Virus record (IMG/VR): IMGVR_UViG_3300024353_000013 | Location: 1-44,377 of that record | Direction: 5' to 3' (one strand) | Length of the DNA: 44,377 nucleotides | Source: a virus | In this document: positions 3,739 to 39,064 of the stretch, one piece after another | How the letters are laid out: the number at the start of each line of letters is the position of its first letter | How positions within the stretch are numbered: the first letter of the stretch is position 1 | Translations under genes and position numbers: made by a program | The notes under the pieces: generated by a model | Told to the model about the DNA's origin: nothing | Database searches by the model: none | Seen by the model: only the letters and a program-made list of their open reading frames with translations

Positions 3739-3984
3739 CTATTTCCTCCTCTCTAATTTGTCTAGCCGATCATCGAGCTTTTTAATCTCGTCTTCTCTCT
3801 TCTCGTTCCATTTTTCTTGAGTGTCTTTAAAATCCTTTACTTGTTGGCAGAGTTTCGCGAGAGTTATGGAGTTCGGGTTATTTCTCTTGCTTATTTTTTT
3901 TATTAAAGGACGAACAACATCTCTTATAATTGTGTATAATATGAGAAGCAAAACCCCTTCAGTTCCAATGTTGCTTATGTTCAT
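3739..3984 (-). CDS. Small membrane protein with coiled coil (holin/XhlA-like)
   Basis: This encodes 81 residues. One hydrophobic helix (about 8-24, TEGVLLLILYTIIRDVV) is followed by a basic patch and a charged coiled coil (45-81). A single transmembrane helix plus coiled coil in a lysis region fits XhlA-type accessory holins, but the order (helix first) differs, so this is tentative. Its ATG coincides with the end of the next gene upstream. Confidence 0.5.
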   Translation of the reverse strand: MNISNIGTEGVLLLILYTIIRDVVRPLIKKISKRNNPNSITLAKLCQQVKDFKDTQEKWNEKREDEIKKLDDRLDKLERRK

Positions 3985-4652
3985 TATGATGCTCCCGCAA
4001 CATATCCAAGCCCAAAAAAAACCGCGCTGTATAGGATATTTTTTAAGCTAAGCTTTAAGCCCGCTTTTCTAATTAGCTTGTCAGCCTCTTTGCCGGTTTC
4101 TTCTGCAATCTCATCGTAGGCTTCTTCTGCTGCAAGCTGTTCTTCCAGGCCCTTTCTTATGCTATGCTCATTTAGGTATTTCTCATACTGCTTAAAAGCT
4201 ATGGAGGCCCAAAAGTTTCTTTGTTTTATTATCTTATCCTTCTCTGCCCTTTCGTTAAAGAATCTATCTTCCCATTGTTTTAAGAGGAGATCTTTATTAG
4301 CAATAATAAGAGTCGGGTCAGTAAGCGTTTCGCCTTCTTTTTTAAGGTCATAAATAATCTGAGCTTTTTCCTCATCTCTCTTTTGACTCTCGAGTATTTC
4401 CTTATCTAATTTTAAGTTCTCCTGCTTTAATTCCTTTATTCCTTTTTCTAGCTGCTCAGTATTTTCATCGGTTGCCTTGGTCTTTTCTACGAGAACGTCC
4501 TTACTCTTTTTCAACTCCTTCTTTGCTGCTGCTAATTCTCCCTTGAGTTTCTGATACCTTGCATCGGACCGGGGGCAAGCTCTCTCGACAATAAATATGG
4601 CCAGCACAAGAATGACGATACCAAAAATTACCGGTTTTATGTAGCTTTTCAT
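3984..4652 (-). CDS. Spanin-like membrane-anchored coiled-coil protein
   Basis: This encodes 222 residues: an N-terminal transmembrane segment (about 7-23), a very long Lys/Glu coiled coil (35-190) and a second hydrophobic segment at the C-terminus (about 205-220). A transmembrane anchor plus periplasmic coiled coil beside an endolysin is typical of spanins (Rz) that disrupt the outer membrane. The extra C-terminal hydrophobic helix is unlike Rz and more like a unimolecular spanin with two anchors. Assigned from topology and position only. Confidence 0.45.
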   Translation of the reverse strand: MKSYIKPVIFGIVILVLAIFIVERACPRSDARYQKLKGELAAAKKELKKSKDVLVEKTKATDENTEQLEKGIKELKQENLKLDKEILESQKRDEEKAQIIYDLKKEGETLTDPTLIIANKDLLLKQWEDRFFNERAEKDKIIKQRNFWASIAFKQYEKYLNEHSIRKGLEEQLAAEEAYDEIAEETGKEADKLIRKAGLKLSLKNILYSAVFFGLGYVAGAS

Positions 4653-4843
4653 TAATCACCAGCCCTAAATTTCTCATGTTTTTCAAACAGCCTCTTGCCT
4701 CCTACGCCTAAGAAGCCAAACGTCCAAACGCCAGCAAATTCAATGAACGGATATTCAGCAACAACCGCTTTGATGATAGATGCAAGGATGATCCCCAGGG
4801 CCCAGAAAACATAAGCCTTTTCAGTATTTAATTTTTTAATCAT
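4652..4843 (-). CDS. Holin-like small membrane protein
   Basis: This encodes 63 residues starting at MIKKLNTEKAYVFW; AAGGTGG lies just upstream of this ATG, so I prefer it to the longer frame. Two hydrophobic helices (about 10-28 and 33-50) and a charged C-terminus give a class II holin-like topology. It lies between the peptidase and the spanin-like gene, the usual place for a holin. Confidence 0.5.
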   Translation of the reverse strand: MIKKLNTEKAYVFWALGIILASIIKAVVAEYPFIEFAGVWTFGFLGVGGKRLFEKHEKFRAGD

Positions 4844-5282
4844 GCCACCTTGCTCCTTTCCTCCATTTCTCATCTATCCTTGGATAAATGAAATAGCCAA
4901 CATCGATGTGAATAAAACTGCCAATTTCCTTATAAATCCCGATCCTTAGGACTGGTGCGGTTTTCTTAATAACCCTTGCCAGCTTATCCACTTCTTCTGG
5001 ATTACAATCTAAATCTAAAGCTAATCCGAATAAATGGATACTATAGGCAAGCCCTCGCTCTGCCCTGTTTCTTTCCGGGCAACGATAGCCAGAGCTAATA
5101 GGAATGGGTTTACTCCATGCTTCACGAATATCATGGAAGTATTTAAAAAGCATCAAGAATGGAGCCCCCATCTCTGGCTCATTTTCTTCCGTAAATAAGT
5201 CAACCGGCAGCTTCTTGCAACACTTACAGCGATACTCGCTTTCAAGAATGAATGGAGCTATATATCGATCTTTATTTTTCAT
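4836..5282 (-). CDS. Peptidase M15 family endolysin (D-Ala-D-Ala / L-Ala-D-Glu type)
   Basis: This encodes 148 residues from MKNKDRYIAP; the ATG overlaps the stop of the giant gene (ATGA). Zinc-peptidase hallmarks are present: SSGYRCPERN (63-72), S81-x-H83-x-x-G-x-A-x-D90 and the third ligand in FIHIDVG (H125). This M15_3 type of single-domain protein cuts the stem peptide or cross-bridge of peptidoglycan. The N-terminal CKCC (19-22) is a common feature of this subfamily. It overlaps the holin-like gene by 8 bases, supporting a lysis cassette. Confidence 0.82.
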   Translation of the reverse strand: MKNKDRYIAPFILESEYRCKCCKKLPVDLFTEENEPEMGAPFLMLFKYFHDIREAWSKPIPISSGYRCPERNRAERGLAYSIHLFGLALDLDCNPEEVDKLARVIKKTAPVLRIGIYKEIGSFIHIDVGYFIYPRIDEKWRKGARWHD

Positions 5283-25967: not shown

Positions 25968-27557
25968 CTAAAACATCTGAGCTATTTTCTCCGAAGAAAG
26001 ATCTCCCTCCATGTCTCTTCTAGCCTGTTTCACAAAGTCTGAGGCTCCAACAGGCACAGGTTTGACATCGGTTTTTTTGGGAACATTTTTTATTTGAAAG
26101 TGATACCAAATCGTGTCATAAATATCTGTTCCCTTTTTCTTCCCCCTATACCAACTTAAAGCTTCGTCTTCATAATCCTTCAAGCCTGGCTTGGATAAGA
26201 TTCTTCCGCTTTCATAATATTTGACAACCTCTGAGTTCCTGTCATCCCTTGGAATGTTCTTGATCTCTAAGAGTTGAACTGGAAGCTTATGGTTGTTTAC
26301 TTTAACGAGGTCATGAAGGAAAATGCCATACTTTTCTTTCTCGATTCCTATTAAATTAACCGGTCTTTTATCAACGAACATTGACCAGTAATAGATCTTT
26401 ATCATCCAGTGATAAAGTTCCATCGGGGTTAGCTTTTTTCGTTCAGCAAATGGGATGTGAAGCCTTTCGTCCGGACACCAATCTCCAAGAGTTATAGCTG
26501 AGAAGGAGCTTTGTTGTTCTGTAGTCCCCGCACAATCTAAAATCATATTCCTGATGAAAACAGGAGGATCTTCTTTATAGTGAAAAATCCATGACGGTCT
26601 TATTTGGACCGCCTCTTCTCTTGTCGGCTGCAGCTCGTAGAGCGCATTGTAAAGATAGGAGCTCATCTTGCTCTTTTTTCTTGCAATATATTTCTCATCG
26701 ACTTTTTCTGGAAAAACAGGATTCCCGTCCTCGTCTCTTACCGGACAGCTAAAAACCGCATATCCGGCCTCTGTTACAAATTCAAGGCAAGGCTTTCTGT
26801 ATATTTTTCTAAAGTCAAACCTGAAGTTGGGATCGAGGATATATCCTGAAAGGTCATCGCTCCACCAGGTAGTTTCAAAAATAAATTCCCGAGCATCTTC
26901 GGCAAAGATCGGTTCCATCTCCTGCCATCTTCTGATAATCTTTGCCCTTCCATCTTGATTTTGAGAGTTCACCTCGTTTACCGCGTTGTCAATTATTCCT
27001 ATCTCATAGTGATGGCCCGTTAGAGATTTCTCCGGAGATCCTATGTCTATCTCAATTCTCTTGTATCGGATCTTTCCTTTATCAAAGGCGATGACGTTAA
27101 AATCGTTCTTTTTGTGGGGTATATATGGTTGATTGCCTTCCTTTAAAGGGAGGTAGTAGAATAAATATTGCAGAATTTTGTTGGTTAAAATCTCTTTAAT
27201 AATTTTCTCTGCATGGTCCTGAGCCAGGTCAAATACTCCGGAATAAATAAAGCCGTTCCCGGCTTGCCTGGCATAAGCCTTTTGTAGAAACCATTGAAGC
27301 ATCAAAGCCCGGGCTATAGAACTTTTGAGGGAGTCCCTGAACTTGAGGACCAATTTTTGAAGAGCGGGATTTTTGATAAGGAAGTCGCACAGCCTTTTAT
27401 GAACCCAGTTCAGGTCCCGGTATTCCTTTTGCTTTCCATGGTGAAGAACAAACTTACATAGGAAGAAGAGATCTGTCAGGATTTTATGGATCCACCAGCC
27501 AGGGTTTTCCTCGATCGAAGGAAACCCCATCTCTTTAAAAATATCAGGAGTTTTCAT
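25968..27557 (-). CDS. terL: Terminase large subunit (TerL)
   Basis: This encodes 529 residues. The ATPase half has a degenerate Walker A (FRDSLKSSI, 73-81), a Walker B-like hydrophobic strand with IIDN (188-191) and a coupling motif ETTWWSDDLSGYI (228-240). The nuclease half has an RNase H-like core: ILDCAGTT (acidic strand 1) and LIGIEKEKYG. It cuts and pumps DNA into the procapsid through the portal. Overlaps the small subunit by 14 bases, consistent with coupled translation. Confidence 0.85.
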   Translation of the reverse strand: MKTPDIFKEMGFPSIEENPGWWIHKILTDLFFLCKFVLHHGKQKEYRDLNWVHKRLCDFLIKNPALQKLVLKFRDSLKSSIARALMLQWFLQKAYARQAGNGFIYSGVFDLAQDHAEKIIKEILTNKILQYLFYYLPLKEGNQPYIPHKKNDFNVIAFDKGKIRYKRIEIDIGSPEKSLTGHHYEIGIIDNAVNEVNSQNQDGRAKIIRRWQEMEPIFAEDAREFIFETTWWSDDLSGYILDPNFRFDFRKIYRKPCLEFVTEAGYAVFSCPVRDEDGNPVFPEKVDEKYIARKKSKMSSYLYNALYELQPTREEAVQIRPSWIFHYKEDPPVFIRNMILDCAGTTEQQSSFSAITLGDWCPDERLHIPFAERKKLTPMELYHWMIKIYYWSMFVDKRPVNLIGIEKEKYGIFLHDLVKVNNHKLPVQLLEIKNIPRDDRNSEVVKYYESGRILSKPGLKDYEDEALSWYRGKKKGTDIYDTIWYHFQIKNVPKKTDVKPVPVGASDFVKQARRDMEGDLSSEKIAQMF

Positions 27558-31333: not shown

Positions 31334-31798
31334 ATGGAGTTCTCAGTATTTCAAAAGCCTATTATTAAAAATCCTTTTCGTTTTTCTTCTTCTGCTGATG
31401 TCTATGAAAAGATGAAAGGATATCAAAAAGCTGATCGTGAAATATTCGTGGTTCTCTTTCTCAATTCTAAGAATGTTGTTACTAATATCGAGACGCATAC
31501 AATCGGCTCGTTTGATACGACGGCCGTTTATCCTCATCAGATTTTCCGTAGCGCTCTGCTTAACAATGCATGTTCTATTATCTGTGTTCATAATCATCCT
31601 TCGGGCGACCCGGAGCCTTCTGTTTCTGATCGAGAGATAACAAAGCAAATCTCCATCGGTTCTCATGTGATAGGGATTCGGCTCCTCGATCATATCGTTC
31701 TGGGTGATTATGGCCGTTACTTCTCATTCGCTGATGATGGTTTAATCGGGGATTACGAAAAGGAATCAGAAGCAAAATTTAAAGGGGGTGAAAAATGA
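31334..31798 (+). CDS. radC: RadC-type JAB/JAMM domain protein
   Basis: This encodes 154 residues. JAMM metal motif H86-x-H88-P-S-G-D-x7-D99 within CVHNHPSGDPEPSVSD and an upstream Glu36 in DREIFVVLFLNSKN. RadC-like proteins (often misnamed DNA repair proteins) are common in plasmids, phages and ICEs next to ardC-type genes, with unknown true role. GGAGGTG precedes the ATG. First gene of the Xer-bounded module; coupled with the next gene. Confidence 0.85.
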   Translation: MEFSVFQKPIIKNPFRFSSSADVYEKMKGYQKADREIFVVLFLNSKNVVTNIETHTIGSFDTTAVYPHQIFRSALLNNACSIICVHNHPSGDPEPSVSDREITKQISIGSHVIGIRLLDHIVLGDYGRYFSFADDGLIGDYEKESEAKFKGGEK

Positions 31799-32038: not shown

Positions 32039-32869
32039 ATGAAAGGCGCTGAGCGAAATAAAGTCTTGCTTGGCAAGCTGAAGGATTTATCCTCTGCCTT
32101 GGTTACGGATCCCGATAAGCTGAAGGCCTTTGCTGACAGGTGGCGCGGTGGATTCCGTCAATACTCGTTTTATAATCAGCTGTTGATTGCGATTCAAAAG
32201 GGCGATGCTACATTGTGCGCTGGTTTCAAGCAATGGAGAAAGCACAAGCGATGGGTCAATGAAGGTGAAAAAGCTCTGTGGATTCTGGCTCCCGGGATCG
32301 TTCCTTACAAGAAAAGGATAGTCAATAAAGATGGTGATGAAAAAGAGATCGAGGAAAAAGTCATCAAGTATTTCTTTTCTGTTGCTGTGTTCGATATCTC
32401 TCAAACATCGGGTCAAGAGCTGCTGATCGGCAATAGTGAAGTCATGGGCAATGGTGATCTTAGCCTGGATGATGTCTCTTCAAAGTTTGATTATCCTGTC
32501 AAGGTTTCTCAGGGTTTGGCCGATGGTTCTACGGATGGTAAAAATATCAAGATTTCTAAACGTTCTAACAGGGCTCAGATGGTTGCCTGTTATTTCCATG
32601 AGTTAGCACACATTCTGCTAGACCATGCTAAGGACAGAGGGAAAAATCTTTCCAGGCAAGTTCGAGAGCTCGAGGCTGAGGCGACCAGTTACCTTGTTTG
32701 TTCCTGCATCGGGATTGAGAACGAAGGCGCAAAGTCTTACATTGGCCATTGGAACGGAAGCAAGGAAAAGATTGACAAGTCGGCGTTGAAGATTCTGGGG
32801 ACCGCTGAAAAGATTCTGAGGAAAGTCAAGCCTGAATGGTTTGACCGTCCTCTAGCATTGGCTTGCTAA
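32039..32869 (+). CDS. ardC: ArdC-like antirestriction protein with zinc metallopeptidase domain
   Basis: This encodes 276 residues. The N-terminal ~110 residues (LKAFADRWRGGFRQYSFYNQLLI...GFKQWRKHKRWVNEGEKALWIL) match the ArdC single-strand DNA-binding domain. A C-terminal zinc peptidase has HELAH (187-191) with a third ligand in the ELEAEATSYLV helix (Glu212 or Glu214). ArdC proteins protect incoming single-stranded DNA from restriction; here it may act during phage or plasmid-like entry. GGAGGTG precedes the ATG. Confidence 0.85.
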   Translation: MKGAERNKVLLGKLKDLSSALVTDPDKLKAFADRWRGGFRQYSFYNQLLIAIQKGDATLCAGFKQWRKHKRWVNEGEKALWILAPGIVPYKKRIVNKDGDEKEIEEKVIKYFFSVAVFDISQTSGQELLIGNSEVMGNGDLSLDDVSSKFDYPVKVSQGLADGSTDGKNIKISKRSNRAQMVACYFHELAHILLDHAKDRGKNLSRQVRELEAEATSYLVCSCIGIENEGAKSYIGHWNGSKEKIDKSALKILGTAEKILRKVKPEWFDRPLALAC

Positions 32870-35481: not shown

Positions 35482-35520
35482 GGGGGGAAGGGCGCAACCC
35501 CCTCCCCTTTTTAAAGGAGG
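35482..35520 (+). terminator. Terminator-like hairpin that can mask the Tas-gene ribosome binding site
   Basis: GGGGGGAAGGG (35482-35492), a 5-base loop and CCCCCTCCCC (35498-35507), then TTTTT (35508-35512), form an intrinsic terminator. The CCTCC at 35501-35505 is also complementary to the binding site GGAGG (35516-35520), 5 bases before the ATG. The two pairings exclude each other. It looks like a transcription/translation switch that keeps the guide-RNA locus low unless induced or read through. Confidence 0.6.
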
Positions 35521-35525
35521 AAAAC

Positions 35526-36299
35526 ATGATTAACGAACAAGCGTATTTTGCGGCTACAACATTGCAGTTTATACAAAAAGCTCGAGTGGCCGCACAGGTA
35601 AGAGAAACGCATCTTGAGAAAAACGGGAAGAGCTGCGAATTGACAAAGCAGGTCGTGGAGAGAGCGGGGAAATTCGAGGAATGGCTGAACGATGAAATCG
35701 GGAAATACGTGAGGGAGCATCCCGCCTACGACTGGTTCAGTAAGGTGAAAGGGGTCGGCAACCTGAACATAGGCAAGGTGCTGAGCCTGATTGACATCGA
35801 ACGGGCGACGATGGTGAGCAAACTCTGGCGCTATGCTGGGATCGGGGTGGTGGACGGAAAGGCGGAGCGGCAACAAAAAGGAAAGAAACTCCACTACAAC
35901 AAGATGCTGAAATCCATGTGCTGGAGGTTGGGAAAGAGCCTGATCAGGGCAAAAGGAGAATATTACAAATATTATCAAGAGAAAAAAAGGGAATACGAAA
36001 GAAGATTCAGGGAGGAGGGAAAAGAGATAATATCGGCAACGAAGCTTCCAAAGGATAAGCGAGGACTCAAAACGGAAACAGATGAGTTTTTTGCCCTGGG
36101 ACATTTAGACATGATGGCCATGAGGAAAATGATCAAACTTTTCCTCTCGCATTTATGGTTGATATGGAGAAAGGCCGAGGGGCTTTCCATCACCGCACCG
36201 TATGTCCATGCTATAAAGGGACACAGCGATTACAGGCCACCGGAAGATTTTATGGAACCGGTGACTGAAGAAAAGAAGCAGGTTGAAGCACAGCTATGA
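35526..36299 (+). CDS. Tas-like (TIGR-associated) protein with Nop/IS110-C-terminal-like domain, no nuclease
   Basis: This encodes 257 residues. AAAGGAGG lies 5 bases from the ATG. The N-terminal ~65 residues are helical. From about 68, FSKVKGVGNLNIGKVLSLIDIERATMVSKLWRYAGIG (71-107) is a helix-hairpin-helix followed by KKLHYNKMLKSMCWRLG (120-136), the signature of the C-terminal half of IS110-family transposases, which is related to the Nop domain of Tas proteins. GHLDMMAMRKMIKLFLSHLW (192-211) completes it. The N-terminal RuvC-like catalytic domain of IS110 is absent and no HNH is seen, so it should bind RNA and DNA without cutting. Its stop codon lies in the first repeat of the array. Confidence 0.85.
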   Translation: MINEQAYFAATTLQFIQKARVAAQVRETHLEKNGKSCELTKQVVERAGKFEEWLNDEIGKYVREHPAYDWFSKVKGVGNLNIGKVLSLIDIERATMVSKLWRYAGIGVVDGKAERQQKGKKLHYNKMLKSMCWRLGKSLIRAKGEYYKYYQEKKREYERRFREEGKEIISATKLPKDKRGLKTETDEFFALGHLDMMAMRKMIKLFLSHLWLIWRKAEGLSITAPYVHAIKGHSDYRPPEDFMEPVTEEKKQVEAQL

Positions 36300-37018
36300 T
36301 GAATGAGAAATCCACTCTGTCAAAGCGAGCCAAAACATTTGAGAAACCCTCTGTTAAGGAGCGAGCTATTTCTAATAAGTAATCCATAAAACATAAGCGA
36401 GCTAAAATGAATAAGGAATCCAATTAAAATGAGCGAGCTGATATAAAGGAGAAATCCACGAAAGAAAAGCGAGCCAAATGATGAGAGAAATCCACTCACT
36501 AAGAGCGAGCTATGATCGGAAAGAAACCCATGCGTCCAGAGCGAGCCAACGTTTTAACGAAACCCATCCATTGGAAGCGAGCCGGAATAAATGAGTAATC
36601 CAAACAGGAATAGCGAGTCAGATGATCAGAGGAATCCGCAACTTGTAAGCGAGCTATGTATATTGAGAAATCCAGAACTATTGAGCGAGCTACAAATAAT
36701 GAGAAATCCATTGACCGGGAAGCGAGCCAAATTTTTTGAGAAATCCATGCTCTATGAGCGAGCCTTATATATTGTGAAAACCATAAGTGATAAGCGAGCT
36801 ACTGGAGCGAAGAAACCCAGGATTCCAAAGCGAGCCATGTTCAGGAAGTAACCCGACATGTCTGAGCGAGCTTCATAAAGAAAGTAATCCACACGTTATG
36901 AGCGAGCTAAGATTGGTAAGAAATCCACGGAAATAAAGCGAGCCATTGACAATGAGAAATCCAAAGTTTTTGAGCGAGCCATGATTAAGAAGGAAACCAA
37001 GTAGTTGGAGCGTTGAGC
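36287..37018 (+). repeat. TIGR array: 20 units of paired repeats with two spacers each
   Basis: Period 36 bp (one unit of 37). Each unit: edge-type repeat AGCGAGCYA (9) - spacer A (8) - loop-type repeat RAGWAAYCCA (10) - spacer B (9). Edge repeats start at 36324, 36360, 36396 and so on at 36-bp steps to 36684, then 36721 to 36973. A degenerate first copy (AGCACAGCTA, 36287-36296) overlaps the end of the Tas gene and a broken last copy (AGCGTTGAGC) lies at 37009. All 40 spacers differ; examples: A/B of unit 11 from 36648, TGTATATT/GAACTATTG; of the unit from 36721, AATTTTTT/TGCTCTATG. Stop codons fall in spacers in every frame, so it is not protein. Conserved boxes with variable spacers at fixed spacing match tigRNA precursors of 36 nt. 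Array direction agrees with the Tas gene. Confidence 0.88.
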
Positions 37019-37132
37019 TTAGGCAAGGTAAGCCAATTTTAAACATGAGAGTACAAGACGAGACAACAACTTTTATCAAAGGCAAGAAGGTTCGTAGATT
37101 TTATACGGGAAAAATAAGGGAAAGGAGAAAAG

Positions 37133-37762
37133 ATGATAGAAGAAGGTCAAATAAAAAAATTAGAAATAACAGCCGCTAGCTTCCCGGCCCGGGCAAGCTT
37201 CATCATTGTTAATAGCCAGGCAACGCTGGATCGGGCCAACGAATTCATGAAGGCCGTAAAAACTTACATAAAGGCAATAGCTGACTTGATGGATCCCGCA
37301 ATAGAAAAAGGCAAGGCGGCCGTTGCTGAAAACGTATCAATAAAAAAGAGGCTTCAGGGCCCGGCAAAAGAAGCGGAGGGAATAGTCAAGCCGGTGATCA
37401 CGATATACCTAGCAGAGCAAGACGACCTAAGAAGAAGGGCCAAGGAAGAAATAGCCCAAGCGATAGAGAAGAAGTTTGAAAAGGCAAGGGAAATTGAAAG
37501 GCTGGGCGATAAGGAAAAGGCTGAGGAGATAAGGAAAAAGGAAACGGCCGTAGCTGAGGTCCTACCACCACCGGTCAAGACTGCCGGGACGCACCTGACA
37601 AAATATTGGACTTGGGAAGAAGAAGATCCAGATAAGATCCCCAGGAAATATTACATTCTTGATAGGCTTGAAATAAACAGGATAGTAAGAGAGCAAAAAG
37701 GAAAAACAAACATTCCTGGAATAAGAGTCTTCCAGAGATCATCATCATCAACAAGGATTTAA
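37133..37762 (+). CDS. Hypothetical recombination-operon protein
   Basis: This encodes 209 residues with an AGGAG site. Long helix regions (about 35-75 and 115-150, RRRAKEEIAQAIEKKFEKAREIERLG) then a C-terminal domain with WTWEEEDPDKIPRKYYILDRLEINRIVREQKGK (near 165-195). This C-terminal pattern is familiar from a phage protein family found just before RecT or other recombinases. The helical part may bind host nuclease or DNA; role unproven. Confidence 0.6.
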   Translation: MIEEGQIKKLEITAASFPARASFIIVNSQATLDRANEFMKAVKTYIKAIADLMDPAIEKGKAAVAENVSIKKRLQGPAKEAEGIVKPVITIYLAEQDDLRRRAKEEIAQAIEKKFEKAREIERLGDKEKAEEIRKKETAVAEVLPPPVKTAGTHLTKYWTWEEEDPDKIPRKYYILDRLEINRIVREQKGKTNIPGIRVFQRSSSSTRI

Positions 37763-37775
37763 AGGGAGGCAAGCT

Positions 37776-37970
37776 ATGGAAAAATATGATGGATGGGTAG
37801 TTAAAAGCTCCCATGGAAGAAACCCCTGGCTTCTTTTGTGGAGCTTCGGAAAGACAAGAAAAGAAGTCATAGAGAATTTTGAAGAGGCATGGGAGGGAGA
37901 GCGTTGGAAAAAACATAGAAGGGCAGGATTTTATAAAATAGTCAAAGTAAAATTTGTGGAGGTGGCATAA
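37776..37970 (+). CDS. Small hypothetical protein
   Basis: This encodes 64 residues with a GGGAGGCAAGCT site. Sequence YDGWVVKSSHGRNPWLLLWSFGKTRKEVIENFE suggests a small alpha/beta protein, seen as an accessory in phage recombination operons. The stop overlaps the next ATG (ATAATG). Function unknown. Confidence 0.55.
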   Translation: MEKYDGWVVKSSHGRNPWLLLWSFGKTRKEVIENFEEAWEGERWKKHRRAGFYKIVKVKFVEVA

Positions 37971-39064
37971 TGCCAGCAATAAAAAAACCAGCAAAAAACC
38001 CAGAAAAAAAGGCAGCACCAAGGAAGAAGCCAAAGGAAAAAGAAGAAGTATTAGAGGGCGTACTGGTTGAGGAACCAAAGGCTGAGGAGAAAGTTCCGGA
38101 AACAAAGATAGTCAAGGTTATGCCAGACTATGAGCAATTGATGAACCTATCTGATGTCTTCAGCAAGGCAGGCCTCTTCCCGGGAATAGAAAATCAATAC
38201 CAGGCTGCTGCCGTGATTCAGCTGGGCCAGGAAATAGATCTCCCACCGATGACCGCACTAAGGACGGTATTCGTGATCCCCAGCAAAAGAGGATCCACCT
38301 TGTGCATAAAAAGCGAAGCTCTCTTGGCCCTGGCAATCAAGAAGGGAGTTCATATGGAGGTTCTTTCAAAGACCAACAAAGGTTGCAAGTTAAGGTTTTC
38401 CCGGAAAGGACAGAAGGAGCACATTGAAGAGTTCAATGAAGAAGATGCAAAAAGGGCAGGGTGCCTAACGCATGACAACTGGATGAAGCATCCAACAAAT
38501 ATGTATTTATGGAGGTGCGTGAAAAACGGCCTGCAGGTTTTCGATGCTCGTCTTTCCCTTGGACTTTCAACTGTAGAGGAAATGCAAGACGAAGGCCTTG
38601 TTGATATTATCCAGCCTCCAGTTGAAAAAGAAGAGAAGCCTCCGGAACCTGAAGAGGAAAAGAAGGCACAGGTATCGTTTACTAAATCCAAAGAGCAGCC
38701 GGCCGCTGAACCCGCAAAAGAAGAGAAGCCTCCGGAACCCCCAGCGCCACCACTAGAAGAAAATGAAGCAAGACAAAAAGAGCTCGTTGTTGAAGATATA
38801 AAAGAATACCTCAAAGCCGGAGGGATTGACAGGAAGCTATTCAAGAAATGGTTGGGTGAGGAGCTGCAGCCTAGTAAGCCTGACAGGGAATTTGTCGGCC
38901 TGAAATTTAACAACTGGTCTTTTACTGAGGGCAAACTTGATGACCTAAAGCTAATAAAAGATAACATGGAATGGGCTGTTGAGAAATACTTGGAATCAGA
39001 AATATTCAAAGCGGAAGCCAATAAAGAGGCACCTGACGAACCAAAGACGGAAGATCCTTTATGA
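37970..39064 (+). CDS. recT: RecT-family single-strand annealing protein
   Basis: This encodes 364 residues. After a Lys/Glu/Pro-rich N-terminal extension (1-45), the core reads LSDVFSKAGLFPGIENQYQAAAVIQLGQEIDLPPMTALRTVFVI...SEALLALAIKKG (about 55-125), RKGQKEHIEEFNEEDAKRAG and NWMKHPTNMYLWRCVKNGLQVFDARLS, the pattern of RecT proteins. A second Pro/Glu/Lys-rich linker leads to a C-terminal domain near 260-350. It anneals single strands made by the exonuclease encoded next. Its stop overlaps the exonuclease start. Confidence 0.88.
   Translation: MPAIKKPAKNPEKKAAPRKKPKEKEEVLEGVLVEEPKAEEKVPETKIVKVMPDYEQLMNLSDVFSKAGLFPGIENQYQAAAVIQLGQEIDLPPMTALRTVFVIPSKRGSTLCIKSEALLALAIKKGVHMEVLSKTNKGCKLRFSRKGQKEHIEEFNEEDAKRAGCLTHDNWMKHPTNMYLWRCVKNGLQVFDARLSLGLSTVEEMQDEGLVDIIQPPVEKEEKPPEPEEEKKAQVSFTKSKEQPAAEPAKEEKPPEPPAPPLEENEARQKELVVEDIKEYLKAGGIDRKLFKKWLGEELQPSKPDREFVGLKFNNWSFTEGKLDDLKLIKDNMEWAVEKYLESEIFKAEANKEAPDEPKTEDPL

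Follow-up and report, generated by a model that had tools for sequence, protein, structure and literature searches.

A phage TIGR-TasA locus with guide pairs conserved between phages and a -35-box bias in reconstructed guide targets

The DNA analysed here, called the window below, is a whole phage record of 44,377 bases from IMG/VR (IMGVR_UViG_3300024353_000013), without end repeats. In its early module, which lies on the plus strand, an open reading frame of 257 residues, tasA, is followed directly by a tandem array in which two conserved repeats alternate with two variable spacers (Table 1). TIGR-Tas systems were described in Science in 2025 (PMC12045711), and it is near certain, as far as a sequence can tell, that this locus is a TIGR-TasA member, of an already known kind. 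New here are results at the level of the guides: pairs of spacers that are conserved between phages, and a bias toward the -35 box in the targets that the guides would read.

A solo Nop-domain protein and its array

The 257-residue protein is TasA, that is, a Tas protein without an N-terminal nuclease. It scores 195.1 bits against the NCBIfam model for TIGR-Tas (NF052498, cut-off 100), and a sequence search of the PDB finds TasR (9mty) at E 2e-22 and TasH (21kl) at E 2e-12. Residue 48 of TasA pairs with residue 151 of TasR and residue 38 with residue 108 of TasH; because the alignments start there, the nuclease part of those proteins is absent from TasA, which begins at the coiled-coil/Nop region. 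A Pfam search of the protein matched no domain. An AlphaFold2 model built from six homologues (predicted local distance difference test score, pLDDT, 80.7; predicted template-modelling score, pTM, 0.77) has the TasH and TasR complexes as its best Foldseek matches (E 6e-9 to 1e-6, template-modelling score up to 0.71), and the IS110-type recombinase IS621 is matched weakly (E 0.6).

The array comprises 20 units of 36 nt, one of which (at 36684) is 37 bp long. Each unit reads edge repeat AGCGAGCYA, spacer A, loop repeat AGWAAYCCA and spacer B. The spacers measure 9 nt; their last base is R, which leaves about 8 nt free. Across 18 units, edge positions 1-6 and the G, AA and CC of the loop carry 2 bits, and the spacer columns mostly 0.1-0.6 bits. 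As an additional base pair within the edge repeat, C3-G6 could form in AGCGAGC; it hardly varies, and hence there is no covariation to be seen. Both ends of the array are truncated. At the 5' end the edge is reduced to AGCTA (36292-36296), so that the array begins in the last codons of tasA and the stop codon TGA (36297-36299) falls inside spacer A of the first unit; at the 3' end only AGCG is left, a truncation found also in three relatives (L003, L005 and L006). Together the two remnants make up one edge repeat split as AGCG|AGCYA, and the sum of the parts (5+9+9+9+4) is 36. As the array ends within the edge repeat, tigRNAs of 36 nt are predicted, the published length (PMC12045711). A scan for rho-independent terminators found none after the array, and the hairpin given in Table 1 lies below the threshold of the scan.

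The original prediction had read this locus as a nuclease-free Nop-domain protein followed at once by 20 units of about 36 bp with spacers of 8-10 nt. Family model, structural matches and fold uphold the protein part, including the similarity to Nop and IS110 C-terminal domains that was sought by profile and by structure; the array agrees with the published definition, in which two repeats of 8-12 nt alternate, unique spacers of about 9 nt separate them and the tas gene adjoins. The positions of the two truncated array ends refine the original description.

Table 1. Features of the locus and of the rest of the window
Feature	Position	Strand	Basis or remark
ParB-family protein, 558 aa	1427-3103	+	sole ParB-like gene found in the window
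RadC/JAB protein	31334-31798	+	few kb upstream of tasA
ArdC-like anti-restriction protein	32039-32869	+	few kb upstream of tasA
Ribosome-binding site of tasA, AAAGGAGG, strong	35513-35520	+	sequence
tasA, 257-aa solo Nop-domain Tas protein without nuclease domain	35526-36299	+	family model, PDB matches, fold
TIGR array, 20 units of 36 nt	36292-37012	+	sequence
First tigRNA unit, 5'-truncated edge AGCTA	36292-36327	+	overlaps last tasA codons
Conserved guide F1 (TGTTCAGGA / ACATGTCTG)	36829-36864	+	common to window, L003 and L004
Conserved guide F2 (CATAAAGAA / CACGTTATG)	36865-36900	+	common to window, L003 and L004
Guide with -35-like spacer A TTGACAATG	36937-36972	+	sequence
Conserved guide F3 (TGATTAAGA / AGTAGTTGG)	36973-37008	+	common to window, L003 and L004
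Terminal edge repeat AGCG, 3'-truncated	37009-37012	+	same truncation in relatives
Weak 5-bp hairpin GCTTA-GGCAAGG-TAAGC, then CAATTTT	37017-37033	+	possible but unconvincing terminator
Exonuclease-like and RecT-like genes	37133-39064	+	directly 3' of array

Relatives were gathered by scans of IMG/VR and of genomes. The close ones are L003 (77-79% identity), L014 (64%, on a 3.5-kb contig of a metagenome-assembled genome of Cloacimonadota), L004, L005 and L006 (60-62%) and L007 (56%); L015, from a Nomurabacteria metagenome-assembled genome, stands at 44%, and about 35 further relatives are more distant. The family model matched every one of the 34 contigs searched, in 32 cases above its cut-off, and most relatives have a 36-nt array. 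Because the same architecture recurs in some 30 related loci, chance is excluded as its source. A published hallmark of these systems is covariation of the box C/D motifs of the edge repeat with those of the loop (PMC12045711), and the same is found here: the first base of the edge equals the first base of the loop in 24 of 25 array consensuses (A/A in 19, T/T in 5, A/T in one; Fisher p 1e-4), bearing in mind that L052 and L053 are near-duplicates, which makes the independent arrays slightly fewer than 25.

Some of these relatives deserve a word of their own. At 3911-5000, the cultured Microcystis phage Mvi-JY20, whose host is known, has a tasA homologue annotated as a hypothetical protein together with about ten units of an array that bears no annotation. 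A contig named in a way that suggests an isolate genome (L042, IMG 642979336) carries a 19-unit array with box D UG. In L015 (4633-5950), TasA is flanked by an upstream and a downstream array that carry an identical guide, ACGCATCGG/AGAGTGAAA. Distant homologues are also encoded by Rhodococcus phage Peregrin (gp187) and by the Mycobacterium phages Rich (gp50) and prophiFSAT01-1 (gp27); no dual-repeat array lies within 4 kb of these three, which are possibly of the stem-loop type.

Conserved guides and the -35 box

Between the arrays of divergent phages, 14 spacer pairs agree with at most 3 mismatches in 18 positions, against 0.65 expected from a within-array shuffling of the B spacers. Three of the guides in the window, F1 to F3, are shared with L003 and L004, and in L003 they stand in identical order and at identical distances, whereas the two units that lie among them have diverged beyond recognition between the two arrays. 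The TasA proteins of L004 and L005 are very similar, yet the two arrays have merely three guides in common. Turnover of guides is thus fast while a few are kept, which points to selection. Several of the differences within the conserved guides F1, F5 and F6 are spaced at multiples of three, as expected if the guides track a coding target, in a number too small for proof.

To read the guides as targets, we reconstructed each one as spacer A followed by the reverse complement of spacer B, a geometry that we derived ourselves from two published features, the C-5 rule and 3' overhangs of 8 nt. A first set, 106 targets from eight arrays, was scanned for all 2080 hexamers, and TTGACA showed the strongest over-representation (7 against 0.86; family-wise p ~0.01). 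TTGACA is the -35 box of sigma-70 promoters. The hypothesis was put in writing, and only then were 22 more arrays retrieved; in the 168 targets of this second set TTGACA was again in excess (6 targets against 1.13 expected, p 0.001; p 0.005 against GC-matched real viral DNA), as was TTGAC (15 against 4.2 expected). In both sets together there are 13 occurrences of TTGACA, against 2.6 in GC-matched genomic DNA (p 4e-6) and 3.8 in intergenic DNA (p 1.6e-4), and among all 5-mers and 6-mers of the 274 targets TTGAC and TTGACA come out on top, above 300 of 300 null maxima. Two of the guides concerned are themselves related across arrays (L003/L056 and L004/L056); with related guides collapsed, TTGACA is left in 11 of 253 clusters, these 11 lying in 8 arrays, against 2.0 expected (p 0.0003). 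Since most cases sit inside a single spacer, the result hardly depends on the geometry assumed. The first unit of the window is a case in point, its reconstructed target TGATGAATG|TTGACAGAG containing a -35 box. Promoters inside the array are an unlikely origin of the signal: orientations are mixed, and two cases arise only in the reconstructed target.

Several points weigh against a promoter interpretation of this bias. The idea was first noticed by eye in the first set, and against intergenic viral DNA the second set taken alone gives a weaker p of 0.024. Just ~5% of targets hold TTGACA and 9% TTGAC, so that most guides stay unexplained, and TATAAT is not enriched in the reconstructed targets. 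Promoter-like sequences with TTGACA also lie directly 3' of some arrays, before the next gene (L003, after 6096; L006, 1400; L007, 8950; L014, 3080), and the one beside L003, TTGACAATG, is identical to spacer A of the window unit at 36937; some TTGACA spacers could therefore stem from local copying of adjoining promoters instead of from target selection. Finally, no natural target was found in any of the searches made, which covered the phages' own contigs, other TIGR phages, IMG/VR, genomes, and phages and plasmids.

In these searches, all guides against their own contigs gave one two-mismatch match, with 1.85 expected, and the 27 other TIGR-phage contigs (918 kb, gaps 0-2) gave two one-mismatch matches, with 1.9 expected; three other target geometries, run on a smaller, earlier set of arrays and contigs, gave counts around control level. 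In IMG/VR, the F1 pattern matched three stretches, a chance number, two of which represent a single homologous tail-fibre motif; F2 matched seven unrelated stretches, also at chance level; F3 matched 23, mostly in two unrelated families of homologous genes that lack the literal spacer. Among 147 Cloacimonadota genomes F1 had three one-mismatch matches, again at chance level, and four L014 guides had no match with two or fewer mismatches in the metagenome-assembled genome that holds L014. Five window targets had no match among phages and plasmids by blastn, a search of low sensitivity for 18-nt targets, which are near its limit. A stretch of the window's own terminase large-subunit gene (26387-26404, minus strand) matches the F3 guide of L004 except at two positions, where the changes are synonymous (peptide IKIYY). 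We rejected the terminase as the target of F1-F3, such matches being at chance count and other terminases lacking the motif; relatives of this terminase were also sought, and none was found. The targets may lie in promoters of the hosts.

Gene neighbourhood and possible roles of TasA

The phage origin of the window is backed by terminase, portal, major head protein and RecT-like families. The minus strand carries the structural module, to which the first three belong. Upstream of tasA, the RadC/JAB and ArdC-like genes form an early counter-defence region. Neither an Rfam match nor a tRNA was found in the window.

A mechanism can be proposed from these elements. The array would be transcribed together with tasA, and the edge repeats would be cut at AGCG|AGCYA, as the truncated ends and the processing described in the literature suggest, giving the 36-nt tigRNAs. 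A TasA dimer would hold one tigRNA through the AG...C(Y)A pairs of box D and box C in edge and loop, spacers A and B would pair with opposite strands of the DNA, and TasA, lacking a nuclease, would open and bend the site and so block the processes taking place there. The likeliest effect would be the repression of genes of the host or of other mobile elements when transcription initiates, promoters being likely sites because -35 boxes are over-represented among the guide targets. That TasA binds DNA by means of its tigRNA in a regulatory or interfering role, with transcription as the likeliest level, we consider somewhat more probable than its opposite. The specific version, in which phages encode TIGR-TasA systems as RNA-guided repressors of transcription and selection keeps conserved guides on the -35 boxes of host or competitor promoters while most other guides turn over fast, is a tentative one that we hold at rather less than even chances, and the promoter role of TasA is put forward as a hypothesis. 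A binding-only effector that could repress genes had been a guess within the original prediction; the TTGACA enrichment lends the idea some support, and the target that it calls for was not found.

TasA might instead bind within genes of competing phages, plasmids or satellites, or within their replication regions, and block replication or elongation, with no preference for promoters, as has been proposed for TasA (PMC12045711). Interference of this sort would resemble that of type IV or V-M CRISPR systems. The codon-like spacing of the differences in F1, F5 and F6, which resembles synonymous changes in a coding target, speaks for this, and so does the lack of guide matches in the phages' own genomes. 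However, such binding does not predict the enrichment of TTGACA, and neither the 27 other TIGR-bearing contigs, nor IMG/VR beyond chance for F1 and F2, nor the gene families found with F3, nor the phages and plasmids, searched at low sensitivity, supplied a target. We regard it as the less likely reading, well below even chances.

A role in integration, partition or DNA architecture through guided bending, as an aid to an integrase or a partner of ParB, appears improbable. The DNA is reported to be strongly bent, and operons of tasA with parB are known (PMC12045711), and the window does encode a ParB-family protein. However, parB lies 34 kb from tasA on the linear record, so that the two are not adjacent and form no operon, 20 different guides are not needed for a single attachment or centromere site, and there are no self-targets. 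As for an ordinary IS110-type transposase remnant next to iterons or other protein-binding sites, the label "transposase" of the matching PHROG 4285, an old one, is what speaks for it. The protein matches Tas far better than IS110, and the N-terminal DEDD domain of IS110 transposases is absent by Pfam and by fold comparison, which refutes this as a family assignment; an alternation of two repeats with two unique spacers is unlike iterons, and the same layout stands beside tasA in about 30 unrelated contigs, with the first bases of edge and loop in agreement. This explanation is hardly credible.

TIGR-TasA among RNA-guided systems

TasA is the commonest effector of TIGR systems, and its role and the natural targets of TIGR guides were stated to be unknown when these systems were described (PMC12045711). 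The conserved guide pairs and the -35-box bias offer a first sequence-based handle on both: they predict where to look, namely at promoters, and which guides to begin with, namely F1-F3 and those with TTGACA. If the promoter interpretation is true, the TasA system is a natural gene-silencing tool.

The closest known counterpart is the FpTIGR locus of Flavonifractor plautii, a TIGR-TasA system (PMC12045711) that shares with ours the solo Nop-domain protein, the edge and loop repeats, the two 9-nt spacers and the truncation of both end edges. Compared with such systems, the present array is long (20 units where 5-15 are usual), has AG in place of UG as its box D, begins within the stop region of tasA, and carries guides common to other phages. 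TasR (9mty) and TasH (21kl, 9w04) have the same Nop core in sequence and fold, whereas no RuvC or HNH domain precedes that core here. With the IS110/IS621 recombinases and their bridge RNA (8wt6) the likeness is confined to a distant one in the fold of the RNA-binding domain; the locus has neither a DEDD catalytic domain nor a bridge RNA, and an array of many guides instead. The nuclease-free CRISPR effectors of type IV and type V-M (cited in PMC12045711) would be similar in function, guided binding without cutting being what we predict for TasA, although their proteins and guide architecture are unrelated to those described here.
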